From contig JAAYAN010000240.1 of assembly GCA_012719345.1 (NCBI GenBank), positions 1 through 41,292 on the forward strand: a DNA stretch of 41,292 nucleotides, written 5' to 3'. Shown piece by piece: positions 24,322 to 31,667 of the stretch (positions are counted from its first letter, which is position 1; each line of letters starts with the position of its first letter). The translations under genes and the position numbers were made by a program. Source of the DNA: Ignavibacteria bacterium. Lineage in GTDB: Bacteria > Bacteroidota > Ignavibacteria > Ignavibacteriales > Melioribacteraceae. Below the pieces are notes generated by a model, which saw nothing but the letters and a program-made list of their open reading frames with translations, was not told the DNA's origin and searched no databases.

Positions 24322-26964
24322 ATGAAATATCCTAAAATTTTAATACAAATTATTTTACTTGCAAGTAATTTAATGTTTGCAGAACAACACAAAAGCATCA
24401 AGGCAATAAAATCGGAACAAAAAATTACAGTTGACGGAATATTAAACGAAACGGTATATGAAAATCAACCGGCAGAATATTTTTACCAAAAAGAGCCGGA
24501 AGAAGGAAAACTTGCAAGCGAAGCTACAAAAGTCTGGGTTTCTTATGACGAAAATAACATTTACATCGGCGTGAAATTGTATGATTCGAATCCTGAATTG
24601 ATTGACGCAAGTCTTAACAGAAAAGATAAATATACAAACTCCGACTGGTTTTACATTTATCTTGATTCTTATAATGATAAACAAACCGGATACTTTTTTG
24701 CTGTTAATGCCGGTGGCTCTAAAATGGACGGAATTTTATATAACGATACTTGGGACGACATTTCCTGGGATGCAATCTGGCACGCACAGGCTTCAATCGA
24801 TTCGGATGGATGGACTGCAGAAATTCAAATTCCTCTTTCGCAATTAAAATTTAACGAAACCGAAAATAATGAATGGGGAATAAATTTCAGAAGAAATATT
24901 AAAAGAAAAAATGAGCAAGCTTTTTTTGTTCATATCCCCAAAACAGAAAATTCTTTCGTTTCGAAATTTGCAAGACTTGAAGGTCTTTCGGGAATAAAAT
25001 CTTCCGGTTCAATTGAAATTTTTCCTTATATAGTTCAAAAAGCCAAATATTTTCAGCACGATGAAAAAGATCCTTTTTATAAATCCGGTCAGTTCCCAAC
25101 TTCTTTTGGCGCAGATTTAAAATATGCGCTCAGCAGTAATTTGTTTCTTACAGGAACAATCAATCCCGATTTCGGACAAGTTGAAGTTGATCCGGCAGTT
25201 ATAAATCTTTCTGCTTCCGAAACTTATTTTGGTGAAAAAAGACCTTTCTTTACAGAAGGTTCTAACTTTTTTATGTTCGGTTACGGAGGGGTAAATAATA
25301 ATTGGGGATTTAATTTTGGCTCACCCGATCTGTTTTATTCGCGAAGAATAGGTCGTTCGCCGCAAGGAGATTTACCCGATGATTACGATTATACAAACGC
25401 ACCAAAAGAAAGCAGGATTTTAGGCGCTGCAAAAATAACCGGTCGCGTTGGCGATGGTTGGTCTTTAGGAATTTTGGATGCGGTAACTCAAAGAACTTAT
25501 GCACAAGTTTCTATCGGTGAAAAAAAGCAAACTTACGAAATTGAACCGCTTACAAATTACAGTCTTGTTAGAGCGATTAAGGAATTTGATAAAGGCAGAC
25601 ATGCAATCGGTTTTAATTTTACCGGAGTGAATAGAGATTTAAATAGCGGAAGTCTTAATAATAAATTAAGCAAAGCTGCTTATACACTTGGCGCAGATGG
25701 TTGGACTACTCTTGATGATGACGGCGATTATGTGCTGAATGCTATGGCTGCAGGTTCATATATTACCGGAACACCTTCCGCGTTAGTTAATATTCAGGAA
25801 AAGTCATATAGATATTCGCAACGCCCCGATAAAACTTATATGAAACTTGATTCAAACAGAACTTCCCTATCAGGTTGGTATATGCGAACAATGATAAATA
25901 AACAAAAAGGGAATTTTTATTTAAACGCTTCTCTTGGTGCTGTATCTCCGGGATTTGAGTATAACGATTTTGGATACCAATGGTTAAGCGACCGTATAAA
26001 TGGTCATATTGTTACCGGTTACAGATGGTTTAATTCCGATGGCATTTTCCGGGAAAAACGAGTTTATCTTGCGCTTTCGCAAAGTTACGATTTTGAAGGA
26101 GACATTACAAACAATGTGATATTTTGGTCAACCAATTTAATATTTACAAATTATTACTCTATCGATTTCCGGGGAAATTGTAATTTTGAAGATTATAACA
26201 GCTCCTTAACACGTAGTGGACCCAAAGTAAAAGACCCGAATAATTTATGGATGATGGCTTCGCTTTCTTCGGATTCAAAGAATAGTGTCAGTTTCAATAT
26301 TGGAACCGAATATGGACGAAATGATGACGGCGGAAAATATTTCGGGTATTGGTCAAACATATCCTGGCATCCTTCTCCGTCTTTTGCGCTTTCAATAGGT
26401 CCGGAATTTTCGCTTGATTACGATACGAGAACTTGGGTTGATAAATTTTCAGACTCTACCGCAATAAGCACATTTTCGAACCGTTATGTGTTTGCCGAGA
26501 TGACGCAGAAAACAATTTCCGGAAATATTAGAATGAATTGGGCTTTTTCACCAAATTTAACGCTCGAGCTATTCTTGCAGCCTTTGTTTTCAGTTGGAAA
26601 GTACAGCAACTTTAAGGAACTCAAAAAAGGACGAACAAACAGCTTTAACTACTATAGTTATAATGGTGCGAAGGTCGATTATAATTCTGAAGAAAACAAT
26701 TATAAAATTGACCCGGATGGCGCTGGAGAAGCGAAATATTTTGAGTTTGATAACCCTGATTTCAACATCAAATCGTTGCGTGCAAATTTAGTTCTTCGCT
26801 GGGAAATTAACGCCGGCTCAATCTTCTATTTTGTTTGGACACAGGAAAAAACCGATGACCAAAATCCGGGAGAAATGAGTTTCCGTAAAGACTTTAAAAA
26901 TTTGTTAAACGATCAGCCCGATAATATTTTCTTAGTAAAGTATTCCCACTGGTTTTCAATATAA
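24322..26964 (+). CDS. DUF5916 outer-membrane protein with CBM9-like N-terminal domain
   Basis: An 880-aa exported protein with signal peptide MKYPKILIQIILLASNLMFA. Residues about 25-210 form a CBM9-like domain (KITVDGILNETVYENQPAEYF, then YDENNIYIGVKLYDSNP and DSDGWTAEIQIPLSQLKF), the DOMON-type fold known to bind carbohydrates. The remainder (about 225-880) is a DUF5916-type region with alternating Tyr/Phe/Trp strands and a C-terminal aromatic residue (KYSHWFSI), as in outer-membrane barrels. The family is common in Bacteroidota; a role in substrate binding or uptake is often proposed but not proven. Transcription probably ends at the shared hairpin at 26971-26995. Confidence 0.85.
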   Translation: MKYPKILIQIILLASNLMFAEQHKSIKAIKSEQKITVDGILNETVYENQPAEYFYQKEPEEGKLASEATKVWVSYDENNIYIGVKLYDSNPELIDASLNRKDKYTNSDWFYIYLDSYNDKQTGYFFAVNAGGSKMDGILYNDTWDDISWDAIWHAQASIDSDGWTAEIQIPLSQLKFNETENNEWGINFRRNIKRKNEQAFFVHIPKTENSFVSKFARLEGLSGIKSSGSIEIFPYIVQKAKYFQHDEKDPFYKSGQFPTSFGADLKYALSSNLFLTGTINPDFGQVEVDPAVINLSASETYFGEKRPFFTEGSNFFMFGYGGVNNNWGFNFGSPDLFYSRRIGRSPQGDLPDDYDYTNAPKESRILGAAKITGRVGDGWSLGILDAVTQRTYAQVSIGEKKQTYEIEPLTNYSLVRAIKEFDKGRHAIGFNFTGVNRDLNSGSLNNKLSKAAYTLGADGWTTLDDDGDYVLNAMAAGSYITGTPSALVNIQEKSYRYSQRPDKTYMKLDSNRTSLSGWYMRTMINKQKGNFYLNASLGAVSPGFEYNDFGYQWLSDRINGHIVTGYRWFNSDGIFREKRVYLALSQSYDFEGDITNNVIFWSTNLIFTNYYSIDFRGNCNFEDYNSSLTRSGPKVKDPNNLWMMASLSSDSKNSVSFNIGTEYGRNDDGGKYFGYWSNISWHPSPSFALSIGPEFSLDYDTRTWVDKFSDSTAISTFSNRYVFAEMTQKTISGNIRMNWAFSPNLTLELFLQPLFSVGKYSNFKELKKGRTNSFNYYSYNGAKVDYNSEENNYKIDPDGAGEAKYFEFDNPDFNIKSLRANLVLRWEINAGSIFYFVWTQEKTDDQNPGEMSFRKDFKNLLNDQPDNIFLVKYSHWFSI

Positions 26965-28113: not shown

Positions 28114-28875
28114 ATGAGAATAACTGACAGAAAATATTTAGATACTTATATTCAATCAATTGGAAAAGAAATTCCAGGATTAATTAAGAATTATGATTTT
28201 TCTGAAAATAAGGGAGGTTTTGACTATTTAACAAAATCATCTGCTGTTTATTCTTCGAATATTGAAGGTAATAGTGTCGATTTGAATTCTTTTATGAATT
28301 ACGAATTGAGCAAAGATAAATTTAAAGCGGGAAAAGAGATAGAAGAAATTGAAAATTTGATTGAAGCATATACTTTTGCACAAACAAACAAATTGAGCGA
28401 GCAAAACTTATTGACTTGCCATAAGATATTTTCGAAGACTTTTTTGATTAGTAGTAAACGCGGTAAATATCGAATTGAACCGGTTGGTGTTTTTGGAAAA
28501 GAAGGTTTAGCATATATGGCTGTTGAGCCTGAATTTGTTGTGCAGGAAATGAAAACATTTTTCAACGATGTTGAGGAATTGATAACTTCAAATCTCAATG
28601 AGATTGAAGTTATTTATTTTGCTTCGCTTATTCATTTACGTTTTGCACATATTCATCCATTCCGTGATGGCAATGGACGAGCAGCACGATTACTTGAAAA
28701 GTGGTTTATTACAGAAAAATTAGGACGTGATTTTTGGAAAATACCGTCAGAAGAATATTACAAAAACAATCAAGCACGTTATTATGAGACTATTAATCTT
28801 GGTGTTAATTATTATGAACTGAATTATGACAAATGCCTTGGTTTTTTAGATATGCTTCCAAATTGTTTAAGATAA
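28114..28875 (+). CDS. Fic family protein with N-terminal inhibitory motif
   Basis: A 253-aa Fic-domain protein. The catalytic motif HPFRDGNGRAAR (181-192) is intact; family members transfer AMP (or other nucleotide or phosphate groups) from a nucleotide onto target hydroxyls. The N-terminal segment contains SSNIEGN (47-53), the (S/T)xxxE(G/N) autoinhibitory helix, with inhibitory Glu51, so this is a class II (self-inhibited) Fic protein. The flap region GKYRIEPVGVFGKEGLAYMAVEP precedes the core. No winged helix or antitoxin gene is attached, and the target is unknown. The surrounding intergenic DNA looks unlike the neighbours, which suggests acquisition by transfer. Confidence 0.88.
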   Translation: MRITDRKYLDTYIQSIGKEIPGLIKNYDFSENKGGFDYLTKSSAVYSSNIEGNSVDLNSFMNYELSKDKFKAGKEIEEIENLIEAYTFAQTNKLSEQNLLTCHKIFSKTFLISSKRGKYRIEPVGVFGKEGLAYMAVEPEFVVQEMKTFFNDVEELITSNLNEIEVIYFASLIHLRFAHIHPFRDGNGRAARLLEKWFITEKLGRDFWKIPSEEYYKNNQARYYETINLGVNYYELNYDKCLGFLDMLPNCLR

Positions 28876-28995
28876 CTGTTGCTGTTGTATGTGATGATTT
28901 GTAGCCCGCTTCAACGTATTTGATATTCAAAATCCACTTTCTATAATTCCAGCAAAACATAAACTGTGATCCGAAACAAAATTCTAAAAAATTAA

Positions 28996-29027
28996 TTTGG
29001 TTAATAATATTAACTTATTTATATTCG
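28996..29027 (+). promoter_or_regulatory. Promoter with palindromic operator before the membrane protein/regulator pair
   Basis: TTTG (28996-28999), 20 bases, then TATATTCG (29020-29027) fits TTTG-N20-TAnnTTTG with one mismatch. The 15-bp palindrome GTTAATA-A-TATTAAC (29000-29014) fills the spacer, a classic repressor position. The 20-base string TTTGGTTAATAATATTAACT recurs exactly at 29945-29964. Confidence 0.6.
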
Positions 29028-29057
29028 AGTGTACTTAAAACAAAATAAAGGAAAAAA

Positions 29058-29648
29058 ATGGAAGAAAGAATTACACCCGAAGAAAGTCTGTTGTTAATTT
29101 CAAAAACAATAGAAGAAACTAAACAAAGGTTTCAAGAAAATGGTCACATAATTATTATGTGGGGCATTATTATGTTTACTGTTTTTTTCAGCCAGTATGT
29201 TTTTTCAATAACAGGTTTATACAAAAAATTTGATATAGTATGGACTTGTATTTTATTTCCGCTTGCAGCAATTTACCAATTTATATACATCAGAAAAACC
29301 ATGAAAAAGAATAACATTCCCAAGACTCTTCTTACAAGAGTAATTACAACAATGGGATGGGCAATGGGTTTGAATATGTTGATTTTGGGTATTCTTTTTG
29401 GACAGCAACTTGGTGATGCCATGGCGCCGGTATTTATAATTCTGCTTGCTTTATCGATGATAGTTATCGGAGCTTCCATTGAATTTAAACCGCTATTCAT
29501 TGGTGGTATATTGCTTAATTTAATTGGACTTGCTTCTTTCTATTTTACCCGGGAATATCATGGTTTTAGTATGATGTTGGGAGCAATAGTAGGATTGCTA
29601 ATACCGGGTATATTACTTAATAGAGCAAATAGGAAAAGAAATGTTTAA
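29058..29648 (+). CDS. Small integral membrane protein, about five segments, function unknown
   Basis: A 196-aa protein with a short charged N-terminal helix (EERITPEESLLLISKTIEETKQRF), then hydrophobic segments at about residues 31-50, 60-78, 97-116, 120-138, 143-160 and 166-182; five or six are plausible. No transporter or enzyme motif is recognised. The stop overlaps the downstream winged-helix gene by 8 bases, so the two are translationally coupled, the arrangement expected of a sensor or target paired with its regulator. A small dimeric winged-helix regulator paired with a membrane protein is a recurrent organisation in Bacteroidota, but this protein's substrate or signal is unknown. Confidence 0.75.
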   Translation: MEERITPEESLLLISKTIEETKQRFQENGHIIIMWGIIMFTVFFSQYVFSITGLYKKFDIVWTCILFPLAAIYQFIYIRKTMKKNNIPKTLLTRVITTMGWAMGLNMLILGILFGQQLGDAMAPVFIILLALSMIVIGASIEFKPLFIGGILLNLIGLASFYFTREYHGFSMMLGAIVGLLIPGILLNRANRKRNV

Positions 29649-29931
29649 CGATTTAGATCCCATATTACATTCGCAGCTTCGATTGTCAATTATATCTATT
29701 TTAATGACAGTTGAAGAAGCCGAATTTACGTTTATTAAAGAAACAACCGGTGCCGCGGCGGGTAATATAAGTATCCAGTTAAAGAAGCTGCAGGAAGCAG
29801 GTTATGTCAAAGTCGAAAAGACCTTCAAGAATAATTATCCCAACACAACTGTTTCAATTACAGATAAAGGGATAAAAGCGTTTGAGGTTTATGTAAATGA
29901 CCTTAAAAAATATATAAATCCAAAAAAATAA
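29641..29931 (+). CDS. Winged-helix transcriptional regulator (MarR/ArsR-like, PF13601 type)
   Basis: A 96-aa single-domain DNA-binding protein. The layout is typical: a starting helix (LHSQLRLSIISILM), a helix-turn-helix with TFIKETTGAAAGNISIQLKKLQEAGYV, and a wing (KVEKTFKNNYPNTTVSITDKGIKAFEVY). The recognition helix is probably AAGNISIQLKKLQEAG. It has no added sensing domain. It is coupled to the membrane-protein gene and probably binds the palindrome GTTAATAATATTAAC found before that gene and before the next one, giving autoregulation and control of the transglutaminase-SUMF1 gene. That binding is inference. Confidence 0.85.
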   Translation: MFNDLDPILHSQLRLSIISILMTVEEAEFTFIKETTGAAAGNISIQLKKLQEAGYVKVEKTFKNNYPNTTVSITDKGIKAFEVYVNDLKKYINPKK

Positions 29932-29944
29932 AAATTTTTATTAT

Positions 29945-29964
29945 TTTGGTTAATAATATTAACT
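29945..29964 (+). promoter_or_regulatory. Second copy of the palindromic operator
   Basis: TTTGGTTAATAATATTAACT is identical over 20 bases to 28996-29015. It lies in the 50-base gap after the regulator gene and ends 18 bases before the transglutaminase-SUMF1 start. A good -7 box is missing downstream, so it may act as an operator only, or the downstream gene may depend on readthrough. Confidence 0.6.
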
Positions 29965-29981
29965 ACTTAACAGGATAAAAT

Positions 29982-31667
29982 ATGAAAATAAAAATATTTA
30001 TTTTAATGCTTGTAATCTTCATCGGATTACTATTTGCTCAAAGCAGATTACAAAACCCGAATGAACAAAGCTTTGTGAATGCCTTTCAAGATGAAAAGTC
30101 GGTATTAGATTTCTATCGTCAATATAGTTTATTTACCGATCCGGGAGAATATGACTATTTGTATAAAAACCTTCCGGATTCATTACCGGAGCTATGCAGT
30201 TTAATAAAGGCTCAGTTTATTCATCCATTATCTGAATTACCACAATATCGTGATCAAATTCCTAAAGAGAGATGGAATGAAACAGAAAAGTATTCAACAG
30301 TTAAATCGGTTCTGCAGGGACTTCAATCCTATGGTTCCAGGGGTTTTGTTAAAGACCGCAAACCAGAAAACCGTTTAGTGCTGGGCTGTCGCGAAAATGC
30401 AATAGTTCTGGCTTCCGTACTAAAATATAAAGGTATTCCTGCCAGAATCCGTTTTGGACATGCAGCATACCTAATACCCGGTTTTTATGTAAATCACACA
30501 ATTTGTGAAGTATGGAACAATATTGAAAAACGTTGGATGTTTGTGGATCCAAGTACCAATATGATTGATTTCAGCAGAGAAATATTTGCATTGGGAAATG
30601 ATTCCTGGTTTAAATTGCAGAACGATGAAATAAACCCTGCCTTGTATGGAATTCCGGGAAAATATAGTGATAAAAACGGATTGGTTTCGATAGCCGGTAT
30701 GATTTGTTCCGATTTAGCCTCGGTATTAGGTAATGAATATACTATATACGAATATGCATCAATAGTTGATTACGCCTATAATAACAACACAAAACTACCC
30801 GAAGAACAAATGAAAATACTTAACAAAATTAGTAAATTGATGCAATCTTTTGATGCTGAGAATCTTACTAAATTACGGGAAATTTATCATAACACTCCAC
30901 AAATTCAAATTACAAAAACATTTGTATTCGATATTTCCTCATTGCTTTCTCAAAACTCTGATATAAAAACATCCGAAAATGAAACGAAGGTTGAGAATTC
31001 TTCACTAAATAAACCCCATATTGAATTTGTAGATATTCCCGGAGGCACATTTATAATGGGAAGCCCTGAAACTGAAGCAGGAAGAAAAAACGATGAAGTT
31101 CAACACATAGTTACATTGAATGCATTTAAAATGAGTAAATATTGCGTAACCTTTGAACAGTATGATATGTTTTGTGAAGCAACCGGCAGAAAAAAACCTT
31201 GGGGATTTAAACGAGGAAATATGCCGGTATCACAAATAACCTGGTACGATGCCCAGGCTTTTGCCGAGTGGATGGGCTGCAGACTGCCAACAGAAGCGGA
31301 GTGGGAATATGCCTGCCGGGCAAATACAACTACTCCTTTTTATACAGGTGACAGCCTAACATTGGATCAGGCATATTTTAACAACACATCAGGTAGAGAA
31401 GCCAAACCTGTTGGCACTTTTCCCCCAAATGTCTTCGGGTTATTTGATATGCACGGTAATATAGGTGAATTGTGCAGCGATTGGTATGGTGAATACGATT
31501 TAAAAGATACATCAAATCCAAAGGGACCGCAAACCGGCGGACTAAAAGTTCTTCGCGGCGGCGGATTTTGGGTGTCAGCACAAGAATGCCGCTCGGCAAG
31601 CCGTTCAAGTGTTCCTGCAGAAAACAGAGGAGCCGGTATTAGTTTTCGTTTAGTGAAAAGTCAGTAA
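29982..31667 (+). CDS. Secreted transglutaminase-like and SUMF1/FGE-sulfatase domain fusion protein
   Basis: A 561-aa exported protein (signal peptide about 1-19, MKIKIFILMLVIFIGLLFA). Residues about 100-200 are a transglutaminase-like cysteine protease fold with catalytic triad Cys136 (LGCRENA), His172 (VNHTICEVW) and Asp189 (MFVDPS). Residues about 346-560 are a SUMF1/formylglycine-generating-type domain: FVDIPGGTFIMGSP, CRLPTEAEWEYAC, MHGNIGELCSDWYG and VLRGGGFW. The two catalytic cysteines expected of a true formylglycine-generating enzyme near the end (human Cys336 and Cys341) are not both visible; only one appears, in QECRSASRSS, so this domain may be binding or structural. The pair suggests a secreted enzyme that cleaves, crosslinks or recognises peptides. 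It shares an operator with the adjacent regulator pair. Confidence 0.85.
   Translation: MKIKIFILMLVIFIGLLFAQSRLQNPNEQSFVNAFQDEKSVLDFYRQYSLFTDPGEYDYLYKNLPDSLPELCSLIKAQFIHPLSELPQYRDQIPKERWNETEKYSTVKSVLQGLQSYGSRGFVKDRKPENRLVLGCRENAIVLASVLKYKGIPARIRFGHAAYLIPGFYVNHTICEVWNNIEKRWMFVDPSTNMIDFSREIFALGNDSWFKLQNDEINPALYGIPGKYSDKNGLVSIAGMICSDLASVLGNEYTIYEYASIVDYAYNNNTKLPEEQMKILNKISKLMQSFDAENLTKLREIYHNTPQIQITKTFVFDISSLLSQNSDIKTSENETKVENSSLNKPHIEFVDIPGGTFIMGSPETEAGRKNDEVQHIVTLNAFKMSKYCVTFEQYDMFCEATGRKKPWGFKRGNMPVSQITWYDAQAFAEWMGCRLPTEAEWEYACRANTTTPFYTGDSLTLDQAYFNNTSGREAKPVGTFPPNVFGLFDMHGNIGELCSDWYGEYDLKDTSNPKGPQTGGLKVLRGGGFWVSAQECRSASRSSVPAENRGAGISFRLVKSQ

Follow-up and report, generated by a model that had tools for sequence, protein, structure and literature searches.

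A candidate palindromic operator repeated around a membrane protein-regulator pair and its secreted cargo in an Ignavibacteria bacterium

Why should one 20-base-pair (bp) string stand twice, letter for letter, within a single short locus, once ahead of a gene for a membrane protein and again ahead of a gene for a secreted protein, with the gene for a small winged-helix protein between the two copies? The locus lies in 41,292 nucleotides from an Ignavibacteria bacterium (Melioribacteraceae; GenBank assembly GCA_012719345.1, contig JAAYAN010000240.1, positions 1 to 41,292, forward strand), the whole of which is called the window here. A sequence-only reading had proposed an autoregulated unit in which the membrane protein and its regulator, the pair, control the secreted product, the cargo. 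The comparisons described below suggest that the locus is, on balance, probably a self-controlled membrane-to-DNA switch composed of an autorepressor, two operators and a membrane antirepressor. Its features are as follows.

28996-29015, plus strand: front operator, core 29000-29014, which includes a −33-like TTTG and lies between that TTTG and the −7 box.
29020-29027, plus strand: −7 box TATATTCG, consensus TAnnTTTG, majority among relatives TATATTTG.
29058-29648, plus strand: membrane protein of 196 amino acids, proposed sensor and repressor partner (hydropathy; AlphaFold predicted local distance difference test [pLDDT] score 85.8).
29641-29931, plus strand: HTH_34 winged-helix protein of 96 amino acids, proposed autorepressor (PF13601, E 1.7e-29).
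29945-29964, plus strand: second operator copy, core 29949-29963, in the regulator-cargo gap, the core ending 18 bp before the cargo ATG.
29982-31667, plus strand: secreted cargo of 561 amino acids with a signal peptide (by eye), a transglutaminase/cysteine-protease-like domain and a C-terminal domain (348-559) like SUMF1, the formylglycine-generating enzyme (FGE).

The repeated palindrome in the window and the genome

The string TTTGGTTAATAATATTAACT is exact at both positions and has no further match with up to three mismatches in the window, and none of 100 window shuffles gave two matches of the 20-mer. Its core, GTTAATA-A-TATTAAC, is a 7-1-7 palindrome whose copies start 949 bp apart, and this 15-mer occurs exactly twice, both times here, in the 4,020,063-base assembly. 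On the identity of the copies, the palindrome, the position of the first copy between a TTTG (28996-28999) and a TAnnTTTG-like box with a 20-bp spacer, and the position of the winged-helix gene between both copies, the sequence-only reading was accurate. A genome-wide regulon was considered and rejected: with up to three mismatches, TTTGGTTWATANTATWAACT has 31 matches in the genome versus 51 for a reversed control pattern, the only matches free of mismatches are the two window copies, and all others carry at least two.

The regulator belongs to HTH_34, with a PF13601 match of 102.2 bits against a curated cut-off of 27, and its gene overlaps the membrane gene by 8 bp. The same genome holds one further HTH_34 match over the cut-off (C249) and one membrane-protein match.

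The sequence is AT-rich (GC content 0.34), which favors such palindromes and could point to a chance or mobile repeat unconnected to the regulator. Named genomes were scanned with an alignment of the regulator, and in the best 80 of 556 confirmed stretches, to which all counts of named loci refer, the strict site GTTWA-N5-TWAAC occurs 78 times, whereas 20 Markov shuffles average 8.5 sites (maximum 13). This excess, the restriction of both exact copies to this locus, the conserved placement and the matched change of operator and regulator described below make an unconnected repeat extremely improbable; uniqueness in the window, uniqueness in the genome and the count of 78 versus 8.5 sites rule out chance.

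The front copy lies inside a predicted promoter

The Bacteroidota promoter consensus has TTTG near −33 and TAnnTTTG at −7 (PMC7366714). Both features surround the front copy in the window, TTTG exactly and the −7 box with one mismatch to TAnnTTTG, which predicts a promoter of this type. The arrangement recurs in relatives. A front operator scores at least 9/10 in 25 of the 27 window-clade loci examined; a 26th, in L059, is a false site by its position. The 25 logo rows give the majority TTTG-GTTWATA.TATWAAC-TA.TT-TATATTTG; L059, with its best match 16 bp before the assumed ATG, fell out of this logo by the length filter and L042 by score. L055, which begins at the regulator, was left out of the operator scoring, the tree and the cargo-operator association counts.

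At least one strict site is found in 67 of the 80 named loci. By place, 32 of the 78 sites stand before the membrane gene, 25 are operon-front sites, meaning that they lie ahead of an operon on the same strand whose last two genes are the pair, 14 lie in the regulator-cargo gap and seven lie elsewhere. Three of these seven (L085, L090 and L103) are themselves operon-front, set aside only for a reverse open reading frame over the pair, and the one in L088 lies upstream of a secreted/receptor-like gene pair. With one mismatch in six allowed, a TAnnTTTG-like box is found after all 32 sites before the membrane gene and after 24 of the 25 operon-front sites (56/57 in total); 53 of these 56 boxes lie exactly 5 bp downstream of the operator, among them all 32 at sites before the membrane gene. 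TTTG with at most one mismatch stands ahead of 30/32 and 20/25 sites, respectively.

Front sites therefore fall between −33 and −7 in the window type, or just past −10 in the other clade treated below, and operators at such positions normally block polymerase. This placement makes it improbable that the winged-helix protein is an activator and argues for a repressor.

A second operator type in the other clade of the family

The other clade of the window's family comprises 13 pairs. In all 12 counted loci (L031 was excluded), RCTTTR-N5-YAAAG followed by an additional CTTT half-site stands at both positions, a count that describes rather than tests the pattern because the pattern was read from those same sequences; single-locus shuffles give p ≤0.0033. 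The front copy comes just after TTGACA (11/12) and a −10-like stretch. In both main operator types, 5 bp separate two inverted half-sites. Between the clades, the recognition helix differs (AAAGN, ATSGN, ATAGN and the like versus TTDGN or ATDGN). This difference, together with a different operator at both positions, indicates that regulator and operator have changed together between the clades.

Comparison thus gives good support to the proposed autoregulated unit with a shared operator, because the site recurs at the same places, embedded in a promoter, in most loci examined, and the second clade has an operator pair of its own.

In either operator type, the palindrome is followed after 2-3 bp by one more half-site (TACTTTA or a CTTT stretch), which may be bound as well.

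A second copy that appears to lack a promoter

Regulator and cargo genes are separated by 50 bp. In this gap of the window, no TAnnTTTG box is seen by eye before the cargo ATG, and no terminator-like site was found. An operator scoring at least 9/10 is present in the gap in 16 of the 27 window-clade loci. Because the −7 box accompanies 56/57 front sites and 2/14 gap sites, the second copy looks promoterless; what is conserved at the gap site is the operator, not a complete promoter, and a roadblock or looping site is its most likely role.

The second copy might instead be a real if weak promoter-operator for the cargo, so that the locus would have two separately repressed promoters and neither roadblock nor loop. 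TTTG with at most one mismatch does precede 11 of the 14 gap sites, a near −7 box is seen there in L049 and L063, and the bases ahead of the gap site are conserved in the window clade as CAATTTGG. However, the −7 region is not conserved in the gap, TTGACA is not apparent in the gap of the other family clade (the search stopped short of the regulator 3' end), and in L088 the operator ends only 9 bp upstream of the cargo ATG. We consider a separate cargo promoter unlikely and retain the promoterless operator.

The second site is absent in most window-clade relatives without transglutaminase-like cargo. L047 and L048, which are identical in the tree and counted twice, have a 20-residue cargo remnant and no gap site; L052 and L061 have fewer than 300 bases after the regulator. 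Where cargo follows, a T-run is seen by eye at or just past the regulator stop codon in both operator clades (the window clade and L019-L030), possibly a pause or UP-like element.

A proposed membrane-to-DNA switch

For the membrane protein, prediction gives one hydrophilic helix at the N terminus (residues 7-27) and six hydrophobic helices, of which that at 144-162 is marginal (best 19-residue hydropathy 1.45), so that the five segments first described become five or six. Even with E values up to 1 allowed, the protein matches no Pfam family, SdpI included. The best Foldseek match has an E of 0.21, and the best VIA-align Z of 10.0 (7oqz) is in the range which that tool deems uninformative for helical bundles. 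The structure alignment covers 56 of the 79 named membrane proteins.

In the proposed switch, the 96-amino-acid protein, probably as a dimer, would bind GTTWA-N5-TWAAC. At the front site it would sit between −33 and −7 and silence the promoter of the membrane-regulator-cargo operon, and with it its own gene (autorepression). At the second site it would block RNA polymerase that leaks through or would loop to the front site some 950 bp away, keeping the cargo tightly off while basal sensor and repressor are still made. On sensing a signal, the membrane protein would capture or inactivate the repressor, perhaps via its conserved N-terminal helix; with both sites freed, the secreted transglutaminase-like/SUMF1-like protein would be made. 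We infer binding, repression over activation, the roadblock or loop, the membrane antirepressor, the signal and the cargo substrate alike.

An alternative assigns sensing to the regulator: the winged-helix protein would itself respond to a small molecule or to redox state, and the membrane protein would be another regulated product, transporter- or immunity-like. The regulator has an ArsR-like match barely over the cut-off (22.5 versus 22 bits), the ArsR-like group often senses ligands, and what ties the two proteins together is their adjacency. Yet the membrane gene precedes and adjoins the winged-helix gene in 79 of the 80 named loci (the exception starts at a contig end) although the surrounding genes change, and some operons, namely, those of L079, L085, L087, L102 and L118, have two tandem membrane paralogues before one regulator (by eye). 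This alternative deserves to be taken seriously, if as the less likely of the two assignments; the membrane protein as antirepressor is the one we prefer.

Several observations weigh against the switch as proposed. The membrane protein's sensor role is a guess, because no reliable fold match was found for it. The operator motifs were derived from the same sequences in which they are counted. A strict site is absent in 13 of the 80 named loci; three of the 13 have a near-site and −7 box in front of the unit, and the other 10 also lack a near-site there, though the flanking sequence is short for L055, L074 and L100. Five front sites are individually weak (shuffle p 0.045-0.1), and that of L042 fails (p 0.62). 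Inspected by eye, L031, the 13th family pair, with recognition helix TTKGN, shows another palindrome in front and no site in the gap. At 28920-28947, ahead of the front operator, TTGATA-N16-TATAAT (11/12) resembles a sigma-70 promoter and may be a second one, in a region whose 16 sigma-70-like matches are no more than shuffles give (14.4); a weak match at 29967-29995, the sole one in the window gap, ends inside the cargo gene. The gap operator accompanies transglutaminase-like cargo in the window clade (13/13 loci with it, 3/14 without; Fisher 3.4e-5), an association that is not significant when descent is allowed for and could be due to descent, because only two independent pairs lie on well-supported branches. 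A gap operator is also present in three loci with no recognizable transglutaminase-like gene (L041 weakly), and in L072 and L080 the pair is followed by a receptor-like gene, with no operator in the gap.

The cargo protein

Proteins outside the cytoplasm are the probable targets of the cargo. Its Cys-His-Asp triad (C136, H172, D189) is invariant in all 11 aligned proteins, out of 13; L040 and L060 were left out, the gene of the latter being in pieces. The PF01841 match reaches 18 bits against a gathering cut-off of 23, which a relative in G045 exceeds (25.4). The fold search places FGE matches on top and, below them with weak scores, 3isr (E 3.2e-3) and 6a8p (E 1.2e-2), a putative cysteine protease and transglutaminase 2. 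Of the cargo model, the first half alone was used because the SUMF1 half is poor (pLDDT mostly <60).

The C-terminal domain matches PF03781 with 168.7 bits against 23.3 (E 2.5e-49) and also matches solved FGE. It is present in five of the 11 aligned cargo proteins and missing from six. FGE needs both active-site cysteines, C336 and C341 in the human enzyme; aligned to human FGE, the window cargo has Val at the C336 position and Cys at the C341 position, which makes FGE activity of the window cargo doubtful. Of four relatives with the SUMF1-like domain in the cargo alignment, two have one cysteine in this stretch and two (L050 and L059) have two, spaced three residues apart instead of four. The output first described as cysteine-protease-like/SUMF1 keeps its transglutaminase-like half, whereas the SUMF1 part proves optional and other cargo occurs.

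In L058, a tail resembling a type IX secretion system sorting tail takes the place of the SUMF1-like domain (by eye). In L050 and L059, the cargo region stands in two tandem copies downstream of the regulator, with one strict operator site per locus.

Distribution of the pair and its cargo

The pair with transglutaminase-like cargo is found in 12 of the 80 named loci. The 79 family genomes, a number that counts the window's own, include 15 with a membrane-protein match and two with the full fusion cargo. In G020 (Melioribacter sp. fen_1284, L039), the trio is kept at 64-86% identity per part together with both operators, the front core differing by one base and the second core by two; since the next downstream gene differs there, the trio looks like a unit.

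Thirteen further family genomes carry the pair. The 12 aligned membrane proteins are 20-26% identical to that of the window, and the 12 regulators 40-51%; L028, whose membrane gene is in pieces, was left out of both protein alignments and the tree. Beyond the secreted gene or genes after the regulator, 11 of these 13 loci have a receptor-like gene (by eye), complete in seven (about 730-750 amino acids) and cut by the contig end in four, and the remaining two contigs end too early to show one. In L020, the first downstream gene has Pfam matches to TPR/DUF2141 and the second to CarboxypepD_reg and Plug. Many operon-front loci, mostly from Chitinophagaceae or unplaced Bacteroidota, have a receptor-like protein of about 750 amino acids and a secreted protein, sometimes with a two-transmembrane protein, before the pair; among the three such loci run against Pfam (L069, L073 and L079), L069 has a Plug match just below the cut-off and L073 has no match.

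Phylum-wide, the membrane-protein profile matches 38 of 296 genomes and 31 of 140 genera, again with the window's own included. Cultured carriers of the pair include Ferruginibacter paludis, Hydrotalea sandarakina and Marivirga atlantica. A quick tree, with an outgroup of our choice, places the window beside KSB1 and Bacteroidales loci, apart from the other clade of its family. The module is broader than the trio: the SUMF1-like part is optional and the cargo variable, being transglutaminase-like, receptor-like or another secreted protein. The pair with transglutaminase-like cargo is conserved as a set without being universal, so the expectation that trio and palindrome would recur together in related genomes holds for some of them.

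In L065 (Opitutales) and in L050 and L058 (KSB1), pair and cargo occur in bins named outside Bacteroidota/Ignavibacteriota. These may reflect horizontal transfer or mis-binning, the latter because many named loci are metagenome bins.

Relation to known systems

The closest parallel is Bacillus subtilis SdpR/SdpI, in which, in the account given in parts of PMC1626106, a polytopic membrane protein sequesters an autorepressor at the membrane in response to ligand. As far as that account goes, both are two-gene units of an autorepressor, or its likeness, and a polytopic membrane protein, the helices being predicted here and the adjacency recurring in 79/80 loci. Unlike SdpR/SdpI, the window unit starts with the membrane gene, and after the pair comes a co-oriented cargo gene preceded by an operator. 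Because the membrane protein has no SdpI-family Pfam match, we suggest that the window unit may work like SdpR/SdpI, not that it is such a system.

A search with the regulator alignment found a single solved relative, PH1061 (PDB 1ub9; E 2.6e-9), but it is deposited as a hypothetical protein, and the search shows no operator or membrane partner for it. The cargo resembles FGE/SUMF1 in its C-terminal domain but differs in the Val at C336 and in the absence of that domain from 6/11 cargo proteins. Likewise, it shares an invariant triad with transglutaminase-like cysteine peptidases (3isr, transglutaminase 2), which the fold search lists, but it falls below the Pfam cut-off and the fold scores are weak. 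No published description of the domain set, of a PF13601/HTH_34 regulator of this kind or of the operator was found in a literature search that missed most subscription journals; the sequence-only reading likewise knew of no described system with this set.

Tentatively, the pair may represent a widespread, undescribed family of membrane-coupled autorepressors in Bacteroidota and relatives, each a multi-helix protein with an HTH_34 partner. Its operator code would have switched at least once, a promoterless second operator would guard downstream cargo, and surface cargo (TonB-type receptors, TPR/DUF2141, transglutaminase-like/SUMF1-like) would have been exchanged. If so, an operator and an operon are predicted for a pair whose membrane protein, matched in 38/296 genomes, has no Pfam family. 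The operator would also predict which receptor-like and secreted proteins obey the switch, making the signal testable, and a promoter combined with a guard site ahead of the cargo would offer a compact means of holding the sensor at a basal level while the output is off.

Neighboring genes

To check whether the contig fits the family, the protein encoded at 24322-26964 was compared with 75 genomes and matched 74 of them; identity in the best of the others is about 50-54%, a level that does not decide the contig's origin. Just upstream of the front operator and outside the trio, 28114-28875 encodes a Fic/DOC-family protein (PF02661, E 4e-15).

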